NCBI GenBank assembly: GCA_002746275.1
Contig: NVWR01000004.1
Span: 233,377 to 260,202 of the forward strand
Length of the DNA: 26,826 nucleotides
Reading direction: 5' to 3'
Source of the DNA: Rhodobiaceae bacterium
GTDB lineage: Bacteria; Pseudomonadota; Alphaproteobacteria; Parvibaculales; Parvibaculaceae
The notes under the pieces are model-generated. The model was given only the letters and a program-made list of their open reading frames with translations. It was not told the DNA's origin and did not search any database. Positions 16,346 to 21,696 of the stretch are shown one piece after another. The translations under genes and the position numbers were made by a program. Each line of letters begins with the position of its first letter. Position 1 is the first letter of the stretch.

Positions 16346-16918
16346 TCAATGATATGGTTGGTAGTGCCCCACGACCAATGCTTGGATGGTTACCTCACAA
16401 TCATCGTTGAGGATGAGCCCATTCCGAACGGTGATGGGAGCCCGATATTGATCATCGTCCGACCGTGACAATAAAATAACATCTCCGTTCTCATCCGCCT
16501 CAACCTGCTTGAGTGTGGTCTCTGTGAGACCCTGCCAACACCGCTGGATGACAATGATCATCTCGTGTTCCAGCTCCCAAGCAACCTCTTTCCAGTCTAC
16601 ACAGTGAACATAATCCCCGTGCTGAACAAGCTGGTTCATAGATTGACCCTGGACTTTGAGCGCATATTGATGCCGCTTGGCGTAACGTTGGTCGAGAGTG
16701 ACAGGTACCGTTCCAGCTTTTTCTGGGTCTACCCGTTCCATCCATGCGCCCGCCTGCAATACACCTACGACAGGCAGATGATATGGCTCAATTAGCCCCA
16801 CGCTCACTTCACCTCCACAATCTTCGCCCAGAGTGCTTGGCGCACACGTGTTGATTTTTGGGTGAGTGAAAATGGCCGATGTGACATAGCTCATTGCCTC
16901 CTTCTTGTGGAGATCCAT
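16346..16918 (-). CDS. S24 (LexA/CI C-terminal) peptidase-like protein without DNA-binding domain
   Basis: The protein has 190 residues. From residue 50 it matches the S24 fold: VLQAG (Ala56-Gly57, at the expected autocleavage site), YALKVQGQSMNQL with serine S93, and LTETTLKQVE with lysine K137. The 44-residue Ser-Lys spacing is like lambda CI. Residues 85-190 are clearly paralogous to the XRE-S24 protein at 18364-19068, sharing QYALK, TTLKQVE/TTIKQVE and ALVVGH. The N-terminal 50 residues hold no helix-turn-helix, so it cannot bind DNA like LexA; it may act like UmuD or form mixed dimers with the full repressor. It lies 39 bases after the LuxR gene on the same strand. An in-frame ATG at 16894 is an alternative start with an AGGAGG unusually close to it. 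Confidence 0.75.
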   Translation of the reverse strand: MDLHKKEAMSYVTSAIFTHPKINTCAPSTLGEDCGGEVSVGLIEPYHLPVVGVLQAGAWMERVDPEKAGTVPVTLDQRYAKRHQYALKVQGQSMNQLVQHGDYVHCVDWKEVAWELEHEMIIVIQRCWQGLTETTLKQVEADENGDVILLSRSDDDQYRAPITVRNGLILNDDCEVTIQALVVGHYQPYH

Positions 16919-16957
16919 TGGGCTATGAGTTTTACATCTTTAGATAGATGAGGTTTC

Positions 16958-17701
16958 TCAGGTTCGCATGACGCCTGCACGTTCGAGATAAGCCAAGAGC
17001 GCAGCCGTGTTGCCTTTCCCGAACCGGCGACGAAGGTCCGACATCACATTATTGATATACCCTTCGGTGAGGCCGAACTCGTTGGCCACCTGCCGTGATC
17101 GAAGCCCTGACTTGATTGCTATCAATATTCTTAGTTCGCTGGGACTAATGCCAACTTCCCTGGCACGGGTTTCCGTGAATTCTGCGTCAGCCAGCAGATG
17201 AAAAGCCTTGACCGCTGACAGCACACCCAGGATGACCGCTTCACTCGGCACCTCATCCCGCTCAACCGCCCCGAACCCACTTTGTCCGCCGCCAGCCGAC
17301 GGTAGGGCGAAACAAAGCCCGTTGTGCTGCTGGCCATCTACGCGCGCGCGATCCATGAAACGGGCCTGCGCATTATTGAAAATTGGGGCATGCTCGTACA
17401 AGATTGGGGTGTATTGGTCCCGCGTTGCAAGTCGAACGGGATCATGTGCAGCAAGACCACAGGAATTATATTCCTCCACCCAGTGGCGATCTCGAAAATC
17501 AACCGCAATGAAATTAGATGCATCGTGTGGTGCCGGGTGGCTTGGGTCTTTCATCCACAAATAGACAAATTGCTCAAATCCAAAGGATCGGACGATCGCC
17601 TCAAGGGCCAGGCACCGGTCTTCGAATATTGTCGAGAATGCCAGCTCCTCGAAATATTCAGCGAATGCATGGAGAGGAAAACCGGGGACGGTTAGAGACA
17701 T
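16958..17701 (-). CDS. LuxR family receptor with autoinducer-binding domain (second copy)
   Basis: A 247-residue protein. Residues about 15-165 form an autoinducer-binding domain with W74, Y78 and D87-P88-V89 (WVEEY...HDPV), all conserved in AHL receptors. Residues about 183-245 form the LuxR/GerE helix-turn-helix (ISPSELRILIAIKSGLRS, LTEGYINNVMSDLRRRFG). It probably activates or represses genes on binding an N-acyl-homoserine lactone, perhaps the product of the synthase at 19248-19874. ATG 17701 is chosen over TTG 17737 because an AGCAGGCG site precedes it. It is divergent from the 148-residue protein gene and precedes the DNA-binding-free S24 gene in the same direction. Confidence 0.85.
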   Translation of the reverse strand: MSLTVPGFPLHAFAEYFEELAFSTIFEDRCLALEAIVRSFGFEQFVYLWMKDPSHPAPHDASNFIAVDFRDRHWVEEYNSCGLAAHDPVRLATRDQYTPILYEHAPIFNNAQARFMDRARVDGQQHNGLCFALPSAGGGQSGFGAVERDEVPSEAVILGVLSAVKAFHLLADAEFTETRAREVGISPSELRILIAIKSGLRSRQVANEFGLTEGYINNVMSDLRRRFGKGNTAALLAYLERAGVMRT

Positions 17702-17783
17702 AATTCGCCTGCTCGCTTGCGATAATAAAATATGCAATTTAGTATTTGTAGATCACATAAAGAAAGCACGAATGGAGGGCTCA
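17702..17783. promoter_or_regulatory. Divergent promoter region, LuxR and 148-residue protein
   Basis: 82 bases, clearly AT-rich, between the two opposed starts. Promoters for both must be here or overlap the genes. I do not see a convincing lux-box dyad. Confidence 0.4.
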
Positions 17784-18230
17784 ATGGGGAGCGATATTGT
17801 ACCGATCAGACCCGGCCTGGAAATCCAAAGCAAAGCCCACTCTGAGTTAATTCATCTTTACGACTCCCTGAGTTCCAAGAAGCAGAATAAAATCAGAGGT
17901 ATTCTTCAACAGTTGGTCGATTTGGAGCAAGAGCTCGTTGAGCCCCATCCAGAGATCGACACGCACGACCAACCTGCTGGCTACTTTCTCAAGGGAGACG
18001 GTGACCATTTGCTCTACTGTGTCCCGATCAACCCTGGTGCCAAAATCCATGATGGGGAGCTTGTGCTGGTTCCAAATGGCGAAAAAGCAGGCATGACACC
18101 CGGCGCCCGCGCGTTACGAATTGAGATCAAAGACAATCGAGTTCTTCTCGGTACAGACTCAGATTTTCGCAAAAGAGACCCTACTGAAGCGGTTTGGGCT
18201 GTCACCACAGGACACTACACGCAACTTTGA
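17784..18230 (+). CDS. Hypothetical protein, possibly a degenerate S24-like C-terminal domain
   Basis: A 148-residue protein with no firm family. The first 60 residues are helical (SKKQNKIRGILQQLVDLEQELVE). The second half, LLYCVPINPG, DGELVLVPN, ARALRIEIKDNRVLLG and AVWAVTTGHYTQL, follows the strand order of the S24 domains on either side: YAFCVDW, GQFVVVRR, IKQVEIDGKGSVILT, IAALVVGHTELFY. The GxSM serine and the lysine are missing, so it could not self-cleave. This alignment is by eye and tentative. ATG 17784 has GGAGGG upstream and is preferred to ATG 17772. It is divergent from the LuxR gene and lies 133 bases before the XRE-S24 gene. Confidence 0.6.
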   Translation: MGSDIVPIRPGLEIQSKAHSELIHLYDSLSSKKQNKIRGILQQLVDLEQELVEPHPEIDTHDQPAGYFLKGDGDHLLYCVPINPGAKIHDGELVLVPNGEKAGMTPGARALRIEIKDNRVLLGTDSDFRKRDPTEAVWAVTTGHYTQL

Positions 18231-18363
18231 TGGCCCCAGCGCGCAGCAGGGGAGTAAACCATCTATTGCAGCCGCCTGCTTTCCGGGGGCACCTGTTTTT
18301 TTCCTGGCCCTATCGAGGGCCTCGTTCTTCGGTTTCACGTCCAATTGAAAGTATATTTTTCAT

Positions 18364-19068
18364 ATGAGTGAAAATTCCGCTCGCGGCTTGCGTATTATGC
18401 TGGCGCGCGAAGCAGCCGAAATGACGCAGGAACAACTGGCTGAGAAAGTCAGCGAGGCCAAACGCGCACGCACGCCAGCCGCGGCGGTGATATCGCACAG
18501 TGCGGTCGAAAATTGGGAGCTAGGGCTCGGCTTTACAACTGAGACCCTTCGCGGTCTCAGTGACGCCCTGAATGTCACCAGAGAGTGGATTTTGTACGGC
18601 TCAGACGAGAGCACCGAAATCGAACCGCAATATTTGCGGGTGCTTGGCTGTGCCCAACCCGGGACTTGGCTTGAGGAAATAGATCAGCCTTCCGACGAGG
18701 TAATACCAGCTGTGCCCGACCCTCGCTATCGGGGGAAAAGCCAGTACGCCCTGAAAATGGTAGGTCCCTCTATGAATTCATTCATCAAGGATGGATCGTA
18801 CGCCTTCTGTGTCGATTGGGACGATCTTGATATTGACCTGGCGACCGGACAGTTTGTCGTAGTGCGACGCTGTCGCGCAGGCCTGTTCGAGACCACCATC
18901 AAACAAGTCGAAATTGATGGAAAAGGCTCGGTCATCCTTACGCCAAAGTCAGATGATCCAAAATTTCGAACACCACTTGAGGTCGATGCCGGACTGGAAG
19001 TGGGCCGCGAAGATACCAAGGTCATCATCGCAGCCCTTGTGGTGGGTCACACCGAACTTTTCTATTAG
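18364..19068 (+). CDS. XRE family repressor with S24 peptidase-like domain (CI/LexA-like)
   Basis: A 234-residue protein. Residues about 8-79 are an XRE helix-turn-helix domain (GLRIMLAREAAEMTQEQLAEKV, HSAVENWELG). Residues about 90-234 are an S24 domain with S136 in MVGPSMNSF and K180 in TTIKQVE, a CI-like spacing of 44. At the usual cleavage position it reads CAQPGTW, Pro99-Gly100 instead of Ala-Gly, so cleavage may be impaired. The family represses promoters until RecA-stimulated self-cleavage. There are no phage structural genes nearby, so it may be a domesticated repressor of the quorum-sensing block. No ribosome site is visible before ATG 18364, hinting at a leaderless mRNA. It ends 3 bases from the convergent 58-residue gene. 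Confidence 0.8.
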   Translation: MSENSARGLRIMLAREAAEMTQEQLAEKVSEAKRARTPAAAVISHSAVENWELGLGFTTETLRGLSDALNVTREWILYGSDESTEIEPQYLRVLGCAQPGTWLEEIDQPSDEVIPAVPDPRYRGKSQYALKMVGPSMNSFIKDGSYAFCVDWDDLDIDLATGQFVVVRRCRAGLFETTIKQVEIDGKGSVILTPKSDDPKFRTPLEVDAGLEVGREDTKVIIAALVVGHTELFY

Positions 19069-19071
19069 AAG

Positions 19072-19248
19072 TCAGTTCAGTGTCTTTGTCCCGACGATGT
19101 CCTTTGCCGCCATCAGTTTTACTGCAAGCTCGTCACAGGTGCCATCTTCCCGAAACCGATCGTTAAACAGGATCAACATATCCAGTGTTGTCGCCATCTG
19201 TTTCAGATGTTCCTCCGGTGTGTCCGGCCATTCGTTTGAAGCATTCAT
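19072..19248 (-). CDS. 58-residue protein translationally coupled to the AHL synthase
   Basis: A small, acidic, helical protein (WPDTPEEHLKQMATTLDML, ELAVKLMAAKDIVGT) with no recognised family. Its ATG shares one base with the stop codon of the AHL synthase (TAATG), so ribosomes finishing the synthase can re-initiate here. Codon use is normal. Such tight coupling suggests that it acts with the synthase or on the signal, for example as a modulator, but nothing in the sequence shows how. It is too short for most gene finders. It ends 3 bases from the convergent XRE-S24 gene. Confidence 0.65.
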   Translation of the reverse strand: MNASNEWPDTPEEHLKQMATTLDMLILFNDRFREDGTCDELAVKLMAAKDIVGTKTLN

Positions 19249-19874
19249 TACGCTGCGAGCTCCTCTTCATCGTCCCTCAAAATCTCACCGCCGATTTGCA
19301 GCAGATTCCGAAGCTTGCCTGTAAATTCCGGTGCGACAGAGTAATGGCCTGCAAGAAATTTCTCCTCACCAAACCCCATGGGCGGGCCATATGATGTCGG
19401 TTCCAATCCCATGTTTGACAGCGCCTTGATTGCCCACGGGTATGTAACGAAACAAAAGCGTTCAATACCTCTGTCCCACGCCCATTCCATGGCAGCAAGA
19501 GTTATGACGGTATGGTAGAGGGCTCTGTCCTTGGCCGACACTTCTGGGTCGACACACATGCGGCTGCCTTCAGCCCATTTTGGCCCGGAAGGTAGTTCGG
19601 CGCCGTATGCAAGATCCGGCCAAAGCTTCTTCAGCATGTAAGGGTGATCGCAGCGGATGTTCCGTCCTGTCGCGCGCATCACGCCATCGTCGTCGTACAA
19701 TGCGAAATAGTGGGTCCACAACGCGGTATCGAACTCATCAGCCTCGCGCTCGGCCCAGGTCGGTATTGCCCACTGGGCATCGCGTACAAAGACCTTGTGA
19801 CGCAGTCGCAGCATGTCGTCTATGACATTGCCGAACCTGTGTGCGGACAGAAGTGTGAAATGTTGAACGTGCAT
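19248..19874 (-). CDS. LuxI-type acyl-homoserine-lactone synthase
   Basis: A 208-residue protein. All hallmark LuxI-family residues are in place, one position along from LuxI numbering: R25, F29, W35, E44, D46, D49 (RHKVF, QW, EADEFD), R71 (ATGR), and E102 and R105 (AEGSRMCVD). The family makes an N-acyl-homoserine lactone from S-adenosylmethionine and an acyl-ACP or acyl-CoA donor in the cytoplasm. The acyl chain cannot be predicted. ATG 19874 is preferred, with AAGGAG 6 bases upstream; the frame stays open further up. It lies 45 bases after the LuxR gene in the same operon. Its ribosome site can be folded into a short hairpin. Confidence 0.9.
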   Translation of the reverse strand: MHVQHFTLLSAHRFGNVIDDMLRLRHKVFVRDAQWAIPTWAEREADEFDTALWTHYFALYDDDGVMRATGRNIRCDHPYMLKKLWPDLAYGAELPSGPKWAEGSRMCVDPEVSAKDRALYHTVITLAAMEWAWDRGIERFCFVTYPWAIKALSNMGLEPTSYGPPMGFGEEKFLAGHYSVAPEFTGKLRNLLQIGGEILRDDEEELAA

Positions 19875-19879
19875 CGATC

Positions 19880-19896
19880 GCTCCTTTGGTTGGAGC
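19880..19896 (-). promoter_or_regulatory. Hairpin covering the synthase ribosome-binding site
   Basis: On the minus strand GCTCC-aaccaaa-GGAGC can pair, with the Shine-Dalgarno GGAG inside the 3' arm. A 5-bp stem is modest, but in this 45-base gap between receptor and synthase it could lower synthase translation. Confidence 0.35.
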
Positions 19897-19919
19897 AACA
19901 AACATCATCCGTCAGTGGG

Positions 19920-20678
19920 TTACTTTGTACTATCCGACCGGATAGGTACGAGGATATCGGATGGGTCCAAGCTGATCTGTTTGGTGTAAACGGCCTTCAG
20001 AACAGCTGGAATCCGGGCATTTACCCCTAGTTTTCGAAAGCAATTCGCGATGTGGAATTTCACGGTCGCTTCTGAAATCAACAATATCTCGCCTATGTCC
20101 CATGACGATTTACCACGGGCGACCAGCGTAAACACCTCTCGCTCACGTTTTGTGAACGGAACTATTCGTTCGTCCCATTCTGATAATAGCGATATGTGGG
20201 CCCGATGCATCACACACGTCACCGCGTAGATTTCAGCCATATGCCGATCCATGTCGAAATCAGCCTGCTCAGACGCAGCAGAAAAACACGCCAATATGCC
20301 GGGCTCGGAAAAGAGTGAGGAAGACATCCCGACTTTCATCCCGGCGTCAGAACTGTCTTCAAATAGAACCAGTTCGTTTTTCGACCACTCCCCCTGGGTT
20401 TTCAATCTGTCCCAGGTAAACGGTCCAGCACCCCTTTCAGCGAACTGATACGCTAGGTCTTCAGCCGCCCTGTCTCGCTCTGCATAGTCATCCAAAAAAG
20501 AACTATCAAACGTCGAGGCGAAATATTGATCGCGACCTGGCAGGGCCCCTTTGATGAAGTAGCCATAGGTGGCGCGTATTGGACCCAAGTTTTCGTTCAT
20601 GTAGCCGCCCCACGCCATCACGATCTCGTCTGGCGTGCGCATAGTTTGAACGGCTTCAACAAATTCAGGAAAATTCAT
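19920..20678 (-). CDS. LuxR family AHL receptor, partner of the synthase
   Basis: A 252-residue protein. Residues about 10-165 look like an autoinducer-binding domain, with FASTFDSSFLDDYAERD and GPFTWDRL (W89), though the usual D-P pair is not preserved, so ligand fit may differ. Residues about 174-233 are a LuxR/GerE helix-turn-helix (FTKREREVFTLVARGKSSWDIGEILLISEATVKFHIANCFRKLGV). ATG 20678 has GGGAG upstream and is preferred over TTG 20696. Its start overlaps the end of the HTH-only gene by 14 bases, and the synthase follows after 45 bases, so receptor and synthase form a standard quorum-sensing pair in one transcript. Confidence 0.88.
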   Translation of the reverse strand: MNFPEFVEAVQTMRTPDEIVMAWGGYMNENLGPIRATYGYFIKGALPGRDQYFASTFDSSFLDDYAERDRAAEDLAYQFAERGAGPFTWDRLKTQGEWSKNELVLFEDSSDAGMKVGMSSSLFSEPGILACFSAASEQADFDMDRHMAEIYAVTCVMHRAHISLLSEWDERIVPFTKREREVFTLVARGKSSWDIGEILLISEATVKFHIANCFRKLGVNARIPAVLKAVYTKQISLDPSDILVPIRSDSTK

Positions 20679-20934
20679 CTGGATCTCCCAAGTCAATGAG
20701 TTCCAGATAAATTGCCTTGGCGAGCGCTTCGTATGTGGATTTCACTTCCAGCTTCTCGCGAACCCTTTTCAACCTGGCATTGATTGCAGCAAGTGATTTG
20801 TTCAAGTGGCGAGCAGCACCCTTGCCACCTCCCCCACCAGCACCTGTGGCCAGCGCGACCAGTGTCATCTGCTCTCCAACAGTGAGAATATTTTTTCGGG
20901 GTTGGCATTCTTTTATTGTTTTGTGCAATTCCAT
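20665..20934 (-). CDS. Small HTH-only LuxR-type protein with glycine-rich insert
   Basis: The protein has 89 residues. Almost all of it is a GerE-like helix-turn-helix: LTVGEQMTLVALAT, then AARHLNKSLAAINARLKRVREKLEVKSTYEALAKAIYLEL. Between the first two helices, residues 31-39 read GAGGGGGKG, an unusual glycine loop. There is no signal-binding domain. It could compete for lux-type sites or pair with full LuxR proteins, as single-domain LuxR proteins such as TraM-like or GerE do in different ways; its action is not known. GAGGGGA precedes ATG 20934. It is first in the receptor-synthase operon, overlapping the receptor by 14 bases. Confidence 0.75.
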   Translation of the reverse strand: MELHKTIKECQPRKNILTVGEQMTLVALATGAGGGGGKGAARHLNKSLAAINARLKRVREKLEVKSTYEALAKAIYLELIDLGDPDEFS

Positions 20935-20965: not shown

Positions 20966-21220
20966 TCAAATTAAACGCGAACCGTTGGAAAACATCAAGA
21001 CATGGACGCTGAGCAAAATCGCGAATCGGCGGATCACTTTGTGCAGCTCACCGCCAAACCAGACAGCTATTTTTTGGTTAGAAAGCCGGCTACTCATCAA
21101 GAGGAACACCAGAAAAAGACCCACTCCAACATACATTTTCTGTTCAAAAAGCCGGTTTTTCACCTGAACCACCGGACAGAGCGGCCACGAGCGACCATCA
21201 AATTGTTGGCTGTTTTCCAT
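20966..21220 (-). CDS. Possible small membrane protein
   Basis: An 84-residue frame from ATG 21220. It has a hydrophobic stretch YVGVGLFLVFLLMSS in the middle and a second, FAILLSVHVLMF, near the end, suggesting two membrane passes. No good ribosome site is seen and no family is recognised. It would sit directly upstream of the HTH-only LuxR gene, 31 bases away, in the same direction. The opposite strand also has a 75-residue frame with an unlikely composition. Either could be chance; the membrane pattern favours this one slightly. Confidence 0.35.
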   Translation of the reverse strand: MENSQQFDGRSWPLCPVVQVKNRLFEQKMYVGVGLFLVFLLMSSRLSNQKIAVWFGGELHKVIRRFAILLSVHVLMFSNGSRLI

Positions 21221-21619
21221 CGTCTTTAGGGTCAGAAGCACTTCGAAAACTAGTAAAAGTCTAGCCTGGCAGGCAAATTGAAAGAATCGTTTTCATTTCG
21301 CTCACACGGACATGAAAGTCCTATTTTCAAAGTTTGTCGGCTGGTGGAGAACATCCCGTGTCAGCGACACCGGCATAGACGGATGCATACTTATCGACAG
21401 AAAACTTCTTGGGAACCGGGAAATCATCACCGTCACAAGAGTGTGCAGCCACTGAGGTAGGCACGGGCGCCAAAACCCTGGGCGGGTCACAACACATCTT
21501 TTTATTTTTGAGCCGCGGCCCGCCGCAGTAGGAACCTCTCAGCCGTTTCATACAGCCACACACAAGGTGGTTGTTCTCATGGGCCGAAAGGGGGATATCC
21601 GTTAAGTCATTGAAAGGAA
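21221..21619. other. Intergenic stretch with no firm gene
   Basis: About 400 bases between the quorum-sensing block and tRNA-His. A 47-residue plus-strand frame (21312-21455, starting MKVLFSKFVGWWRTSR) reads somewhat protein-like but lacks a clear ribosome site. A GC-rich palindromic patch lies near 21514-21530 beside an A/T-rich run, but in neither direction does a T-run follow a proper stem. This stretch should also hold promoters for the leftward block. Confidence 0.4.
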
Positions 21620-21696
21620 TGGTACAGCTGGGGGGAATTGAACCTCCGACCTCTTGATCCACAATCAAGCGCTCTAACCGACTGAGCTACAGCTGC
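21620..21696 (-). tRNA. tRNA-His (anticodon GTG)
   Basis: 77 bases including an encoded CCA. The anticodon arm is CTTGA-TTGTGGA-TCAAG, giving GTG, which reads CAC/CAU. The D-arm TAGCTCAGTCGGTTAGAGC and T-loop TTCAATT are normal; the T-stem has one A-C mismatch. The acceptor pairs GCAGCTG with CAGCTGT, so position 1:72 is G:U, the discriminator is A73, and the base before G1 is T. Normal bacterial tRNA-His has an extra G at -1 opposite C73. The G-1-less, U72/A73 form is known from a group of Alphaproteobacteria with a matching histidyl-tRNA synthetase. This is the best lineage marker in the window. Confidence 0.95.

Follow-up and report, generated by a model that had tools for sequence, protein, structure and literature searches.

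Whether a phage-type repressor governs the synthesis of a cell-density signal, or only stands beside the genes for it, is the question raised by a stretch of Rhodobiaceae bacterium DNA (26,826 nucleotides; hereafter the window) that occupies positions 233377-260202 of contig NVWR01000004.1 within a 3.45-Mb genome. The block under study, which lies between a conserved left flank and a tRNA-His gene, encodes a synthase of acyl-homoserine lactone (AHL), two receptors of the LuxR type and two proteins with the S24 domain. A first-pass annotation had described it as one quorum-sensing (QS) operon interleaved with S24 modules and had proposed that DNA damage or proteolysis relieves repression of signaling; its gene set was confirmed in part, and its single-operon layout was not. 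As judged from sequence, the block is a real, unusual and accessory QS locus and a variant of the QS/XRE switch known from phages, with evidence for control of the CI type. The reading we favor, tentatively, is that the locus is held by a phage-derived CI-type repressor and released by a paralog of it that lacks the helix-turn-helix (HTH) domain.

A recurrent dyad, two S24 proteins and a LuxI/LuxR pair

The repressor gene and the signaling genes share an exact 17-bp dyad, TGAAAG-N5-TTTTCA. One copy (O1, 18346-18362) stands one base before the ATG of XRE-S24, which must be the start codon because the HTH matches start near residue 10; two further copies, O2 (21279-21295) and O3 (21313-21329), lie upstream of luxR1-luxI. 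The dyad was first noticed as a 21-bp repeat in two copies and was generalized to TGAAA-N7-TTTCA, so that the third copy played no part in its definition. This form occurs three times in the window against 0.04 expected, a count reached by none of 100 shuffles, and the longer form is common to all three copies. Across the 3.45-Mb genome the exact longer form was found four times, three of them in the block, inside one 3-kb span; the fourth (G000:C1:280370-280386) is probably a chance occurrence because it falls inside the unrelated coding sequence of an NtrC-like gene (L187:1501-1517 within 866-2308). A motif-free census of the block, covering all dyads whose 6-nt arms differ at no more than one position and are spaced by 0-9 nt, returned only this dyad (plus a second register) in three copies, and none of 200 dinucleotide shuffles reached three for any dyad. 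The exact dyad is concentrated in the block, and XRE-S24, as the neighbor of O1, is the natural candidate for a protein that would bind O1-O3.

XRE-S24 (P4; 18364-19068, plus strand) is a repressor of the CI type, as the first-pass annotation had proposed, with HTH_3 and PF00717 matches above cut-off and a match to PHROG 4 (E=1.7e-20). The second S24 protein, S24noHTH (P1; 16346-16918, minus strand; 190 aa; PF00717 E=2.5e-10), had likewise been described correctly as devoid of a DNA-binding domain; its gene begins 39 bp behind luxR2. S24noHTH shares 44% identity with XRE-S24 over the S24 domain, a relation beyond what chance would give. In a tree of 33 rows the two grouped with P0022, a long branch, at 99/92; in a reduced tree of 22 rows, built without four long rows and without seven rows from genomes of the class, they paired as sister sequences, moderately supported (94/66) and present in 96% of 200 bootstrap trees. 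S24noHTH is a paralog of XRE-S24.

The catalytic residues are kept in both proteins (Ser136 and Lys180 in XRE-S24, Ser93 and Lys137 in S24noHTH) and are invariant in 26/26 aligned S24 rows. The scissile column, which aligns with the Ala-Gly of LexA in a PDB profile alignment, holds alanine in 24 of the 26 rows, glycine in one (P0004) and proline only in XRE-S24, followed by glycine in 23 and serine in three. Like members of the LexA/CI family, XRE-S24 combines an HTH and an S24 domain bearing the Ser/Lys dyad with candidate operator dyads; unlike them, it has Pro99-Gly100 in place of Ala-Gly or a similar small residue, and its candidate target is a QS operon. This proline should block self-cleavage. 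It lowers the case for a self-cleaving repressor and not the case for a working CI-type repressor. Cleavage of S24noHTH stays possible, given its retained Ala56-Gly57, Ser and Lys.

The signaling genes comprise luxI (19248-19901, minus strand), an AHL synthase as previously annotated (PF00765 E=5.2e-14), and luxR1 (19920-20696, minus strand), whose product has PF03472 and PF00196 matches above cut-off and matches CviR at E=1.5e-17. With a synthase domain next to a receptor that carries both the AHL-binding and the GerE domain, luxI and luxR1 are, by domain content, a LuxI/LuxR pair, and luxR1 is the cognate of luxI by position. Two full LuxR receptors had been announced; LuxR1 has both domains, and LuxR2 (16958-17737, minus strand) has PF03472 only (E=7.9e-15). 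LuxR2 is of the AHL-receptor type and its residues 36-255 align with RhlR in an RhlR/LasR alignment, although its HTH lies below the Pfam cut-off (GerE E=0.12).

By strand and spacing, these genes fall into at least three transcription units: luxR2-S24noHTH on the minus strand; P3 and XRE-S24 on the plus strand, 133 bp apart and perhaps separate units; and a minus-strand unit in which a possible 84-aa open reading frame (ORF) is followed by the HTH-only gene, luxR1, luxI and a 58-aa ORF. The plus-strand genes split two groups of minus-strand genes, and the description as an interleaved operon is not literally right because no transcript holds both strands. Consensus promoters and terminators were counted at chance level in the block.

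Proposed circuit and competing readings

The genes, their layout, the motif recurrence, the residues, the S24 kinship and the hotspot can be joined into a circuit by three steps that we infer, namely site binding by XRE-S24, its pairing with S24noHTH, and AHL control of S24noHTH. S24 domains form dimers in the LexA/CI family, and XRE-S24 would bind TGAAAG-N5-TTTTCA as a dimer. A protein on O1 would obstruct the promoter or the start of XRE-S24, giving the negative autoregulation usual for the CI type, and O2 and O3, 34 bp apart, would allow cooperative repression of the operon that includes luxR1-luxI. XRE-S24 would probably not be cleaved upon DNA damage, because its scissile bond is Pro-Gly. 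Instead, relief would come from S24noHTH, which would be translated from the same transcript as LuxR2 and is most plausibly an antagonist that pairs with XRE-S24 through the common S24 domain. AHL sensed by LuxR2 (and LuxR1) would then raise S24noHTH, derepress luxI and render the signal switch-like. The locus itself would have its origin in a mobile cassette of QS and repressor genes that occupied the tRNA-His hotspot. The fullest form of this circuit, a bistable, SOS-independent QS locus whose AHL operon is held by an uncleavable CI-type repressor and freed by its AHL-induced HTH-less relative, is a bolder proposal that we consider doubtful as it stands.

Several observations weigh against the circuit. 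The loose form of the dyad is unremarkable: with one mismatch allowed it is again found three times in the window, a count reached by 13 of 100 shuffles, and across the genome the longer form has 26 matches when up to one mismatch is accepted, a small excess over the 17 of the reversed control. O2 and O3 lie 38-110 bp ahead of the putative 84-aa ORF that precedes the HTH-only gene and about 345-395 bp from the HTH-only gene itself, so the link to the QS operon hinges on a promoter before an uncertain ORF. Repressor sites had been predicted at two promoters; the two copies upstream of position 20934 (21279-21329) agree with that prediction, and the luxR2/P3 promoter lacks the dyad, the best match in 17690-17800 having five mismatches. 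The 33-row tree places the long-branch P0022 inside the XRE-S24/S24noHTH pair, and S24noHTH, with its intact Ala-Gly, Ser and Lys, may have another role. The dyad could belong to a LuxR protein, and S24 stands next to luxI at just one of 77 LuxI matches.

This last point bears on the best-surviving alternative, that a Tepidicaulis-type luxR-luxI pair and a separate phage-derived S24 cassette came to lie in one tRNA-His hotspot without interacting. LuxI matches were surveyed with PF00765, which gave 77 in 59/385 genomes of the class. DNA around the 76 outside the window was taken for some 5 kb in both directions, or to the contig end, which often came first; 73 stretches hold 74 of these matches and two more cover the rest. 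An S24-domain profile run on all of them found S24 near 0/76, within the same 5-kb reach and often nearer contig ends, while scoring positive in the window and in eight S24 loci taken as such. With a rough XRE profile, XRE genes were detected close to several LuxI genes. At E<=1e-8, S24noHTH has relatives in 9/385 genomes, the window's included; in the other eight, S24 is on a different contig from LuxI in two (G010, G081) and accompanied by no LuxI match in six. S24 is found apart from luxI in 8/8 of these genomes, an outcome that the first-pass annotation had itself named as refuting the linked system. The S24 protein of G010, 41% identical to XRE-S24 over the S24 part, belongs to a prophage that also encodes an exonuclease, a methyltransferase and a terminase. 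So far, the LuxI and S24 combination is a single case and not a conserved system, and its S24 parts are phage-like. Elsewhere, S24 searches gave three weak matches in viral contigs, and XRE-S24 gave only distant matches in phage and plasmid records. A further S24 protein is encoded in the same genome (L002:1177-1875, PF00717); its N-terminal half has no Pfam match at 1e-5.

The nearest family relatives of the luxR1-luxI pair, in G038 and G039 (LuxI 55-56% and LuxR1 40% identical), show luxR-luxI followed by a small ORF, with no S24 gene detected nearby, as separate origins would predict; a LuxI profile built with these sequences matches LasI. Of the genus's six further genomes, five were without a match in the LuxI search and G008 had a distant match elsewhere. 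A single-sequence LuxI search of the named genomes returned nothing and a LuxI alignment search two loci; phage records gave two distant LuxI matches.

The site itself also favors independent arrival. The tRNA-His gene (21620-21696, minus strand) bounds an insertion hotspot whose flanks are an amidase and a class-III aminotransferase gene on the left and tRNA-His, a sodium symporter gene and an alpha/beta hydrolase gene on the right. Both flank proteins are present in 6/6 other genomes of the genus (the aminotransferase is split over contigs in G004 and G007), and the stretch between the flanks was read in five of them (G003, G004, G005, G006 and G008). There G006 has an RND pump gene (PF00873), G005 an RND gene and another ORF, and G004 an FMO-like gene; G003 has the extra ORF of G005, an RND gene and a roughly 70-kb island, read at its two ends only, which encodes a phage-type integrase and carries part of tRNA-His in a second copy (55 bp at 94.5%; L054:9307-10717, L055). 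G008 holds a truncated RND pump gene and an xre-luxR-luxI-like-small-ORF cassette (L052:3975-6273), in which the luxI-like gene falls short of the Pfam cut-off (E=9e-4), LuxR matches PF03472 at 2e-11 and the XRE HTH matches are above cut-off. Because the same site has differing contents in relatives and the block stands where the RND gene sits, the block occupies a variable site and is accessory DNA in an insertion hotspot; no RND pump remnants were found in the block. Chance juxtaposition has to contend with the exact dyad shared by the start of XRE-S24 and the region ahead of the QS genes, and we regard it as unlikely.

As a second alternative, the dyads would be boxes of a LuxR-type protein (LuxR1, LuxR2 or the HTH-only protein), which would make XRE-S24 a target of QS and not its controller. 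A lux box would be expected ahead of the luxR1-luxI operon, and two of the copies do lie there; the block also encodes LuxR1, LuxR2 and a third, weakly matching HTH. Lux boxes usually have CT...AG ends, however, and this odd 17-bp dyad has none; moreover, O1, at one base before the XRE-S24 ATG, is a place for repression, where a bound protein can hardly activate. The lux-box pattern CTG-N10-CAG occurs five times in the block, four times in coding sequence and once (21164) within the uncertain 84-aa ORF. We think this assignment improbable.

Equally improbable in our estimate is a third alternative, in which XRE-S24, S24noHTH or both would self-cleave with RecA upon DNA damage and couple the SOS response to QS. 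The invariant Ser and Lys of both proteins and the Ala-Gly of S24noHTH are compatible with it, and an SOS system probably exists because LexA is encoded elsewhere in the genome (L001:1480-2178, TIGR00498 E=8e-55). Against it stand Pro99 of XRE-S24 and the LexA box GTTC-N7-GTTC, of which the window has no exact copy; its one-mismatch matches number 24 versus 22 expected, no more than chance. No umuC was seen among the proteins of the block; S24noHTH resembles the UmuD type in being an S24 protein without HTH, and its neighbors are luxR2 and a small ORF. DNA-damage control of XRE-S24 found no support, given Pro99, the missing exact LexA box and the chance-level count of near matches. Thus the S24-QS connection of the first-pass annotation survives as a physical regulatory link supported by three shared dyads, while its DNA-damage or proteolytic part is unsupported for XRE-S24.

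The weakest alternative, a decaying and functionless remnant of a prophage or island switch, fits the lack of recognizable phage structural genes, integrase and att-like repeats and the reported retention of luxI/R modules in degraded or cryptic prophages (PMC13345283), yet is very improbable: the listed ORFs are uninterrupted, Ser/Lys persist in both S24 proteins, all three sites match exactly, and a homolog of P3 with 67% identity exists elsewhere.

Receptor ancestry, small proteins and the island setting

Relatives of LuxR2 at E<=1e-12 were found in 2/385 genomes of the class, the window's own and G008. The G008 relative is 33-35% identical, belongs to the same tRNA-His site and sits inside the xre-luxR-luxI-like cassette. 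LuxR2 and this protein therefore probably share descent from one cassette, whose XRE and LuxI partners would since have been replaced in the window. LuxR2 gave no match in phage and plasmid records, and viral contigs searched with LuxI, P3 and LuxR2 gave none. The layout of the G008 cassette is that of published prophage QS operons, and no prophage was visible within the 11 kb examined.

A prophage edge was considered for the block and rejected: no att-like copy of tRNA-His (exact matches of at most 11 bp) was present, and no phage structural gene or integrase was recognized in the ORF list, Pfam or PHROGs. The earlier statement that phage genes are absent holds for these classes and not for XRE-S24, which is itself of the phage-repressor type. 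In G003, unlike the window, the integrase-bearing island does make use of this tRNA gene, and on it we noted a very large ORF of 1603 aa (L055:1185-5996), helicase/nuclease-like by eye.

The HTH-only protein (20665-20934, minus strand; 89 aa) had been called an HTH-only LuxR. The ORF is present, with a weak HTH of LuxR or response-regulator type; the family match lies below the curated cut-off (GerE E=0.14), other libraries gave PHROG 3282 at E=2e-4 and a best NCBIfam match at E=0.004, and no BLASTP similarity to LuxR1 was found. Its end overlaps the start of luxR1, by 14 bp if luxR1 begins at the ATG at 20678. The 58-aa ORF (19072-19248, minus strand; no Pfam match) overlaps the luxI stop with its ATG by one base, bearing out the coupled small protein of the first-pass annotation. 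These two overlaps suggest coupled translation. Small ORFs directly behind luxI were seen at window:19072-19248 (58 aa), L023:9311-9559 (82 aa), L024:9298-9546 (82 aa) and L052:3975-4163 (62 aa); those of the window, L023 and L052 have no BLASTP similarity to one another. The possible 84-aa membrane ORF (20966-21220, minus strand; alternative GTG start at 21241) has a hydrophobic segment and no convincing family, and its existence is uncertain.

P3 (17772-18230, plus strand), an orphan protein of 152 aa divergent from luxR2 and without a family match above cut-off, had been taken for a third S24 relic. No S24 match was obtained in Pfam, PHROGs or NCBIfam, and the word relic is not warranted because the ORF is intact and has a 67%-identical homolog (P0003). 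By eye, its C-terminal part resembles an S24 domain without Ser/Lys; comparison with the S24 profile in hhalign gave 49% probability over that part, and the structure model is of low confidence (predicted local distance difference test score, pLDDT, 37.5). P3 occurs in 1/385 genomes of the class, the window's own, and has no match in plasmid records. A near-identical P3, P0002, has two member sequences on three contigs, the longest of 133 kb, and given this a second genome with the locus may exist.

Relation to phage switches and meaning for quorum sensing

QS joined to an XRE/CI switch has already been published for phages (PMC10432266, PMC13345283). In a Phaeobacter inhibens prophage, an xre-luxR-luxI / hth switch is described whose QS cassettes exchange with cI modules (PMC13345283, a 2026 preprint). 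The window resembles it in having LuxI and LuxR beside XRE-type regulators in a mobile-element setting, and G008 carries an xre-luxR-luxI-like cassette at the same hotspot. It differs, as far as the available part of that preprint goes, in that no phage is visible, the XRE protein has an S24 domain and runs against luxI rather than heading its operon, and an HTH-less S24 paralog is present; in P. inhibens, cI modules replace QS modules and are not joined to them. The phage arrangement of xre, luxR and luxI in one operon with a divergent hth is absent from the window, and in G008 the gene order is present and a divergent hth was not seen. The phage switch lies within a prophage; the window block lies in a hotspot only.

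In Aeromonas phages ARM81ld and Apop, LuxR and XRE drive a counter-oriented small ORF (smORF) encoding an antirepressor that inactivates cI without proteolysis (PMC10432266). In the proposed circuit, too, an AHL receptor would act by way of an antagonist that disables a CI repressor with no proteolysis involved. The phage antagonist is a small protein without homologs, whereas that of the window would be a relative of the repressor's own S24 domain, and the available part of that report mentions no LuxI. P3, divergent from luxR2, holds a position like that of the phage smORF. An alphaproteobacterial QS system offers a parallel in CerM/CerN of Cereibacter sphaeroides, where HTH-less CerN antagonizes a full-length regulator (PMC11655674); unlike the S24 pair, both are LuxR homologs. 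In another alphaproteobacterium, Dinoroseobacter shibae, QS-, CtrA- and LexA-regulated traits overlap, and the available part of the report gives no LexA sites found in silico at QS operon promoters (PMC6473078). No S24 repressor of a luxI operon paired with an HTH-less S24 protein was described among the top-ranked literature matches, which covered titles and abstract openings with subscription journals mostly outside.

The new aspect is a chromosomal locus in which a CI-type repressor appears to act directly on the luxI operon and a relative made up of the S24 domain alone is its likely antagonist. If the proposal is true, it would show how phage AHL/XRE/CI switches turn into host circuits and would give QS a memory element independent of DNA damage; an SOS-independent switch of the lysogeny type would have been reused to time the cell's joining of a signaling population.

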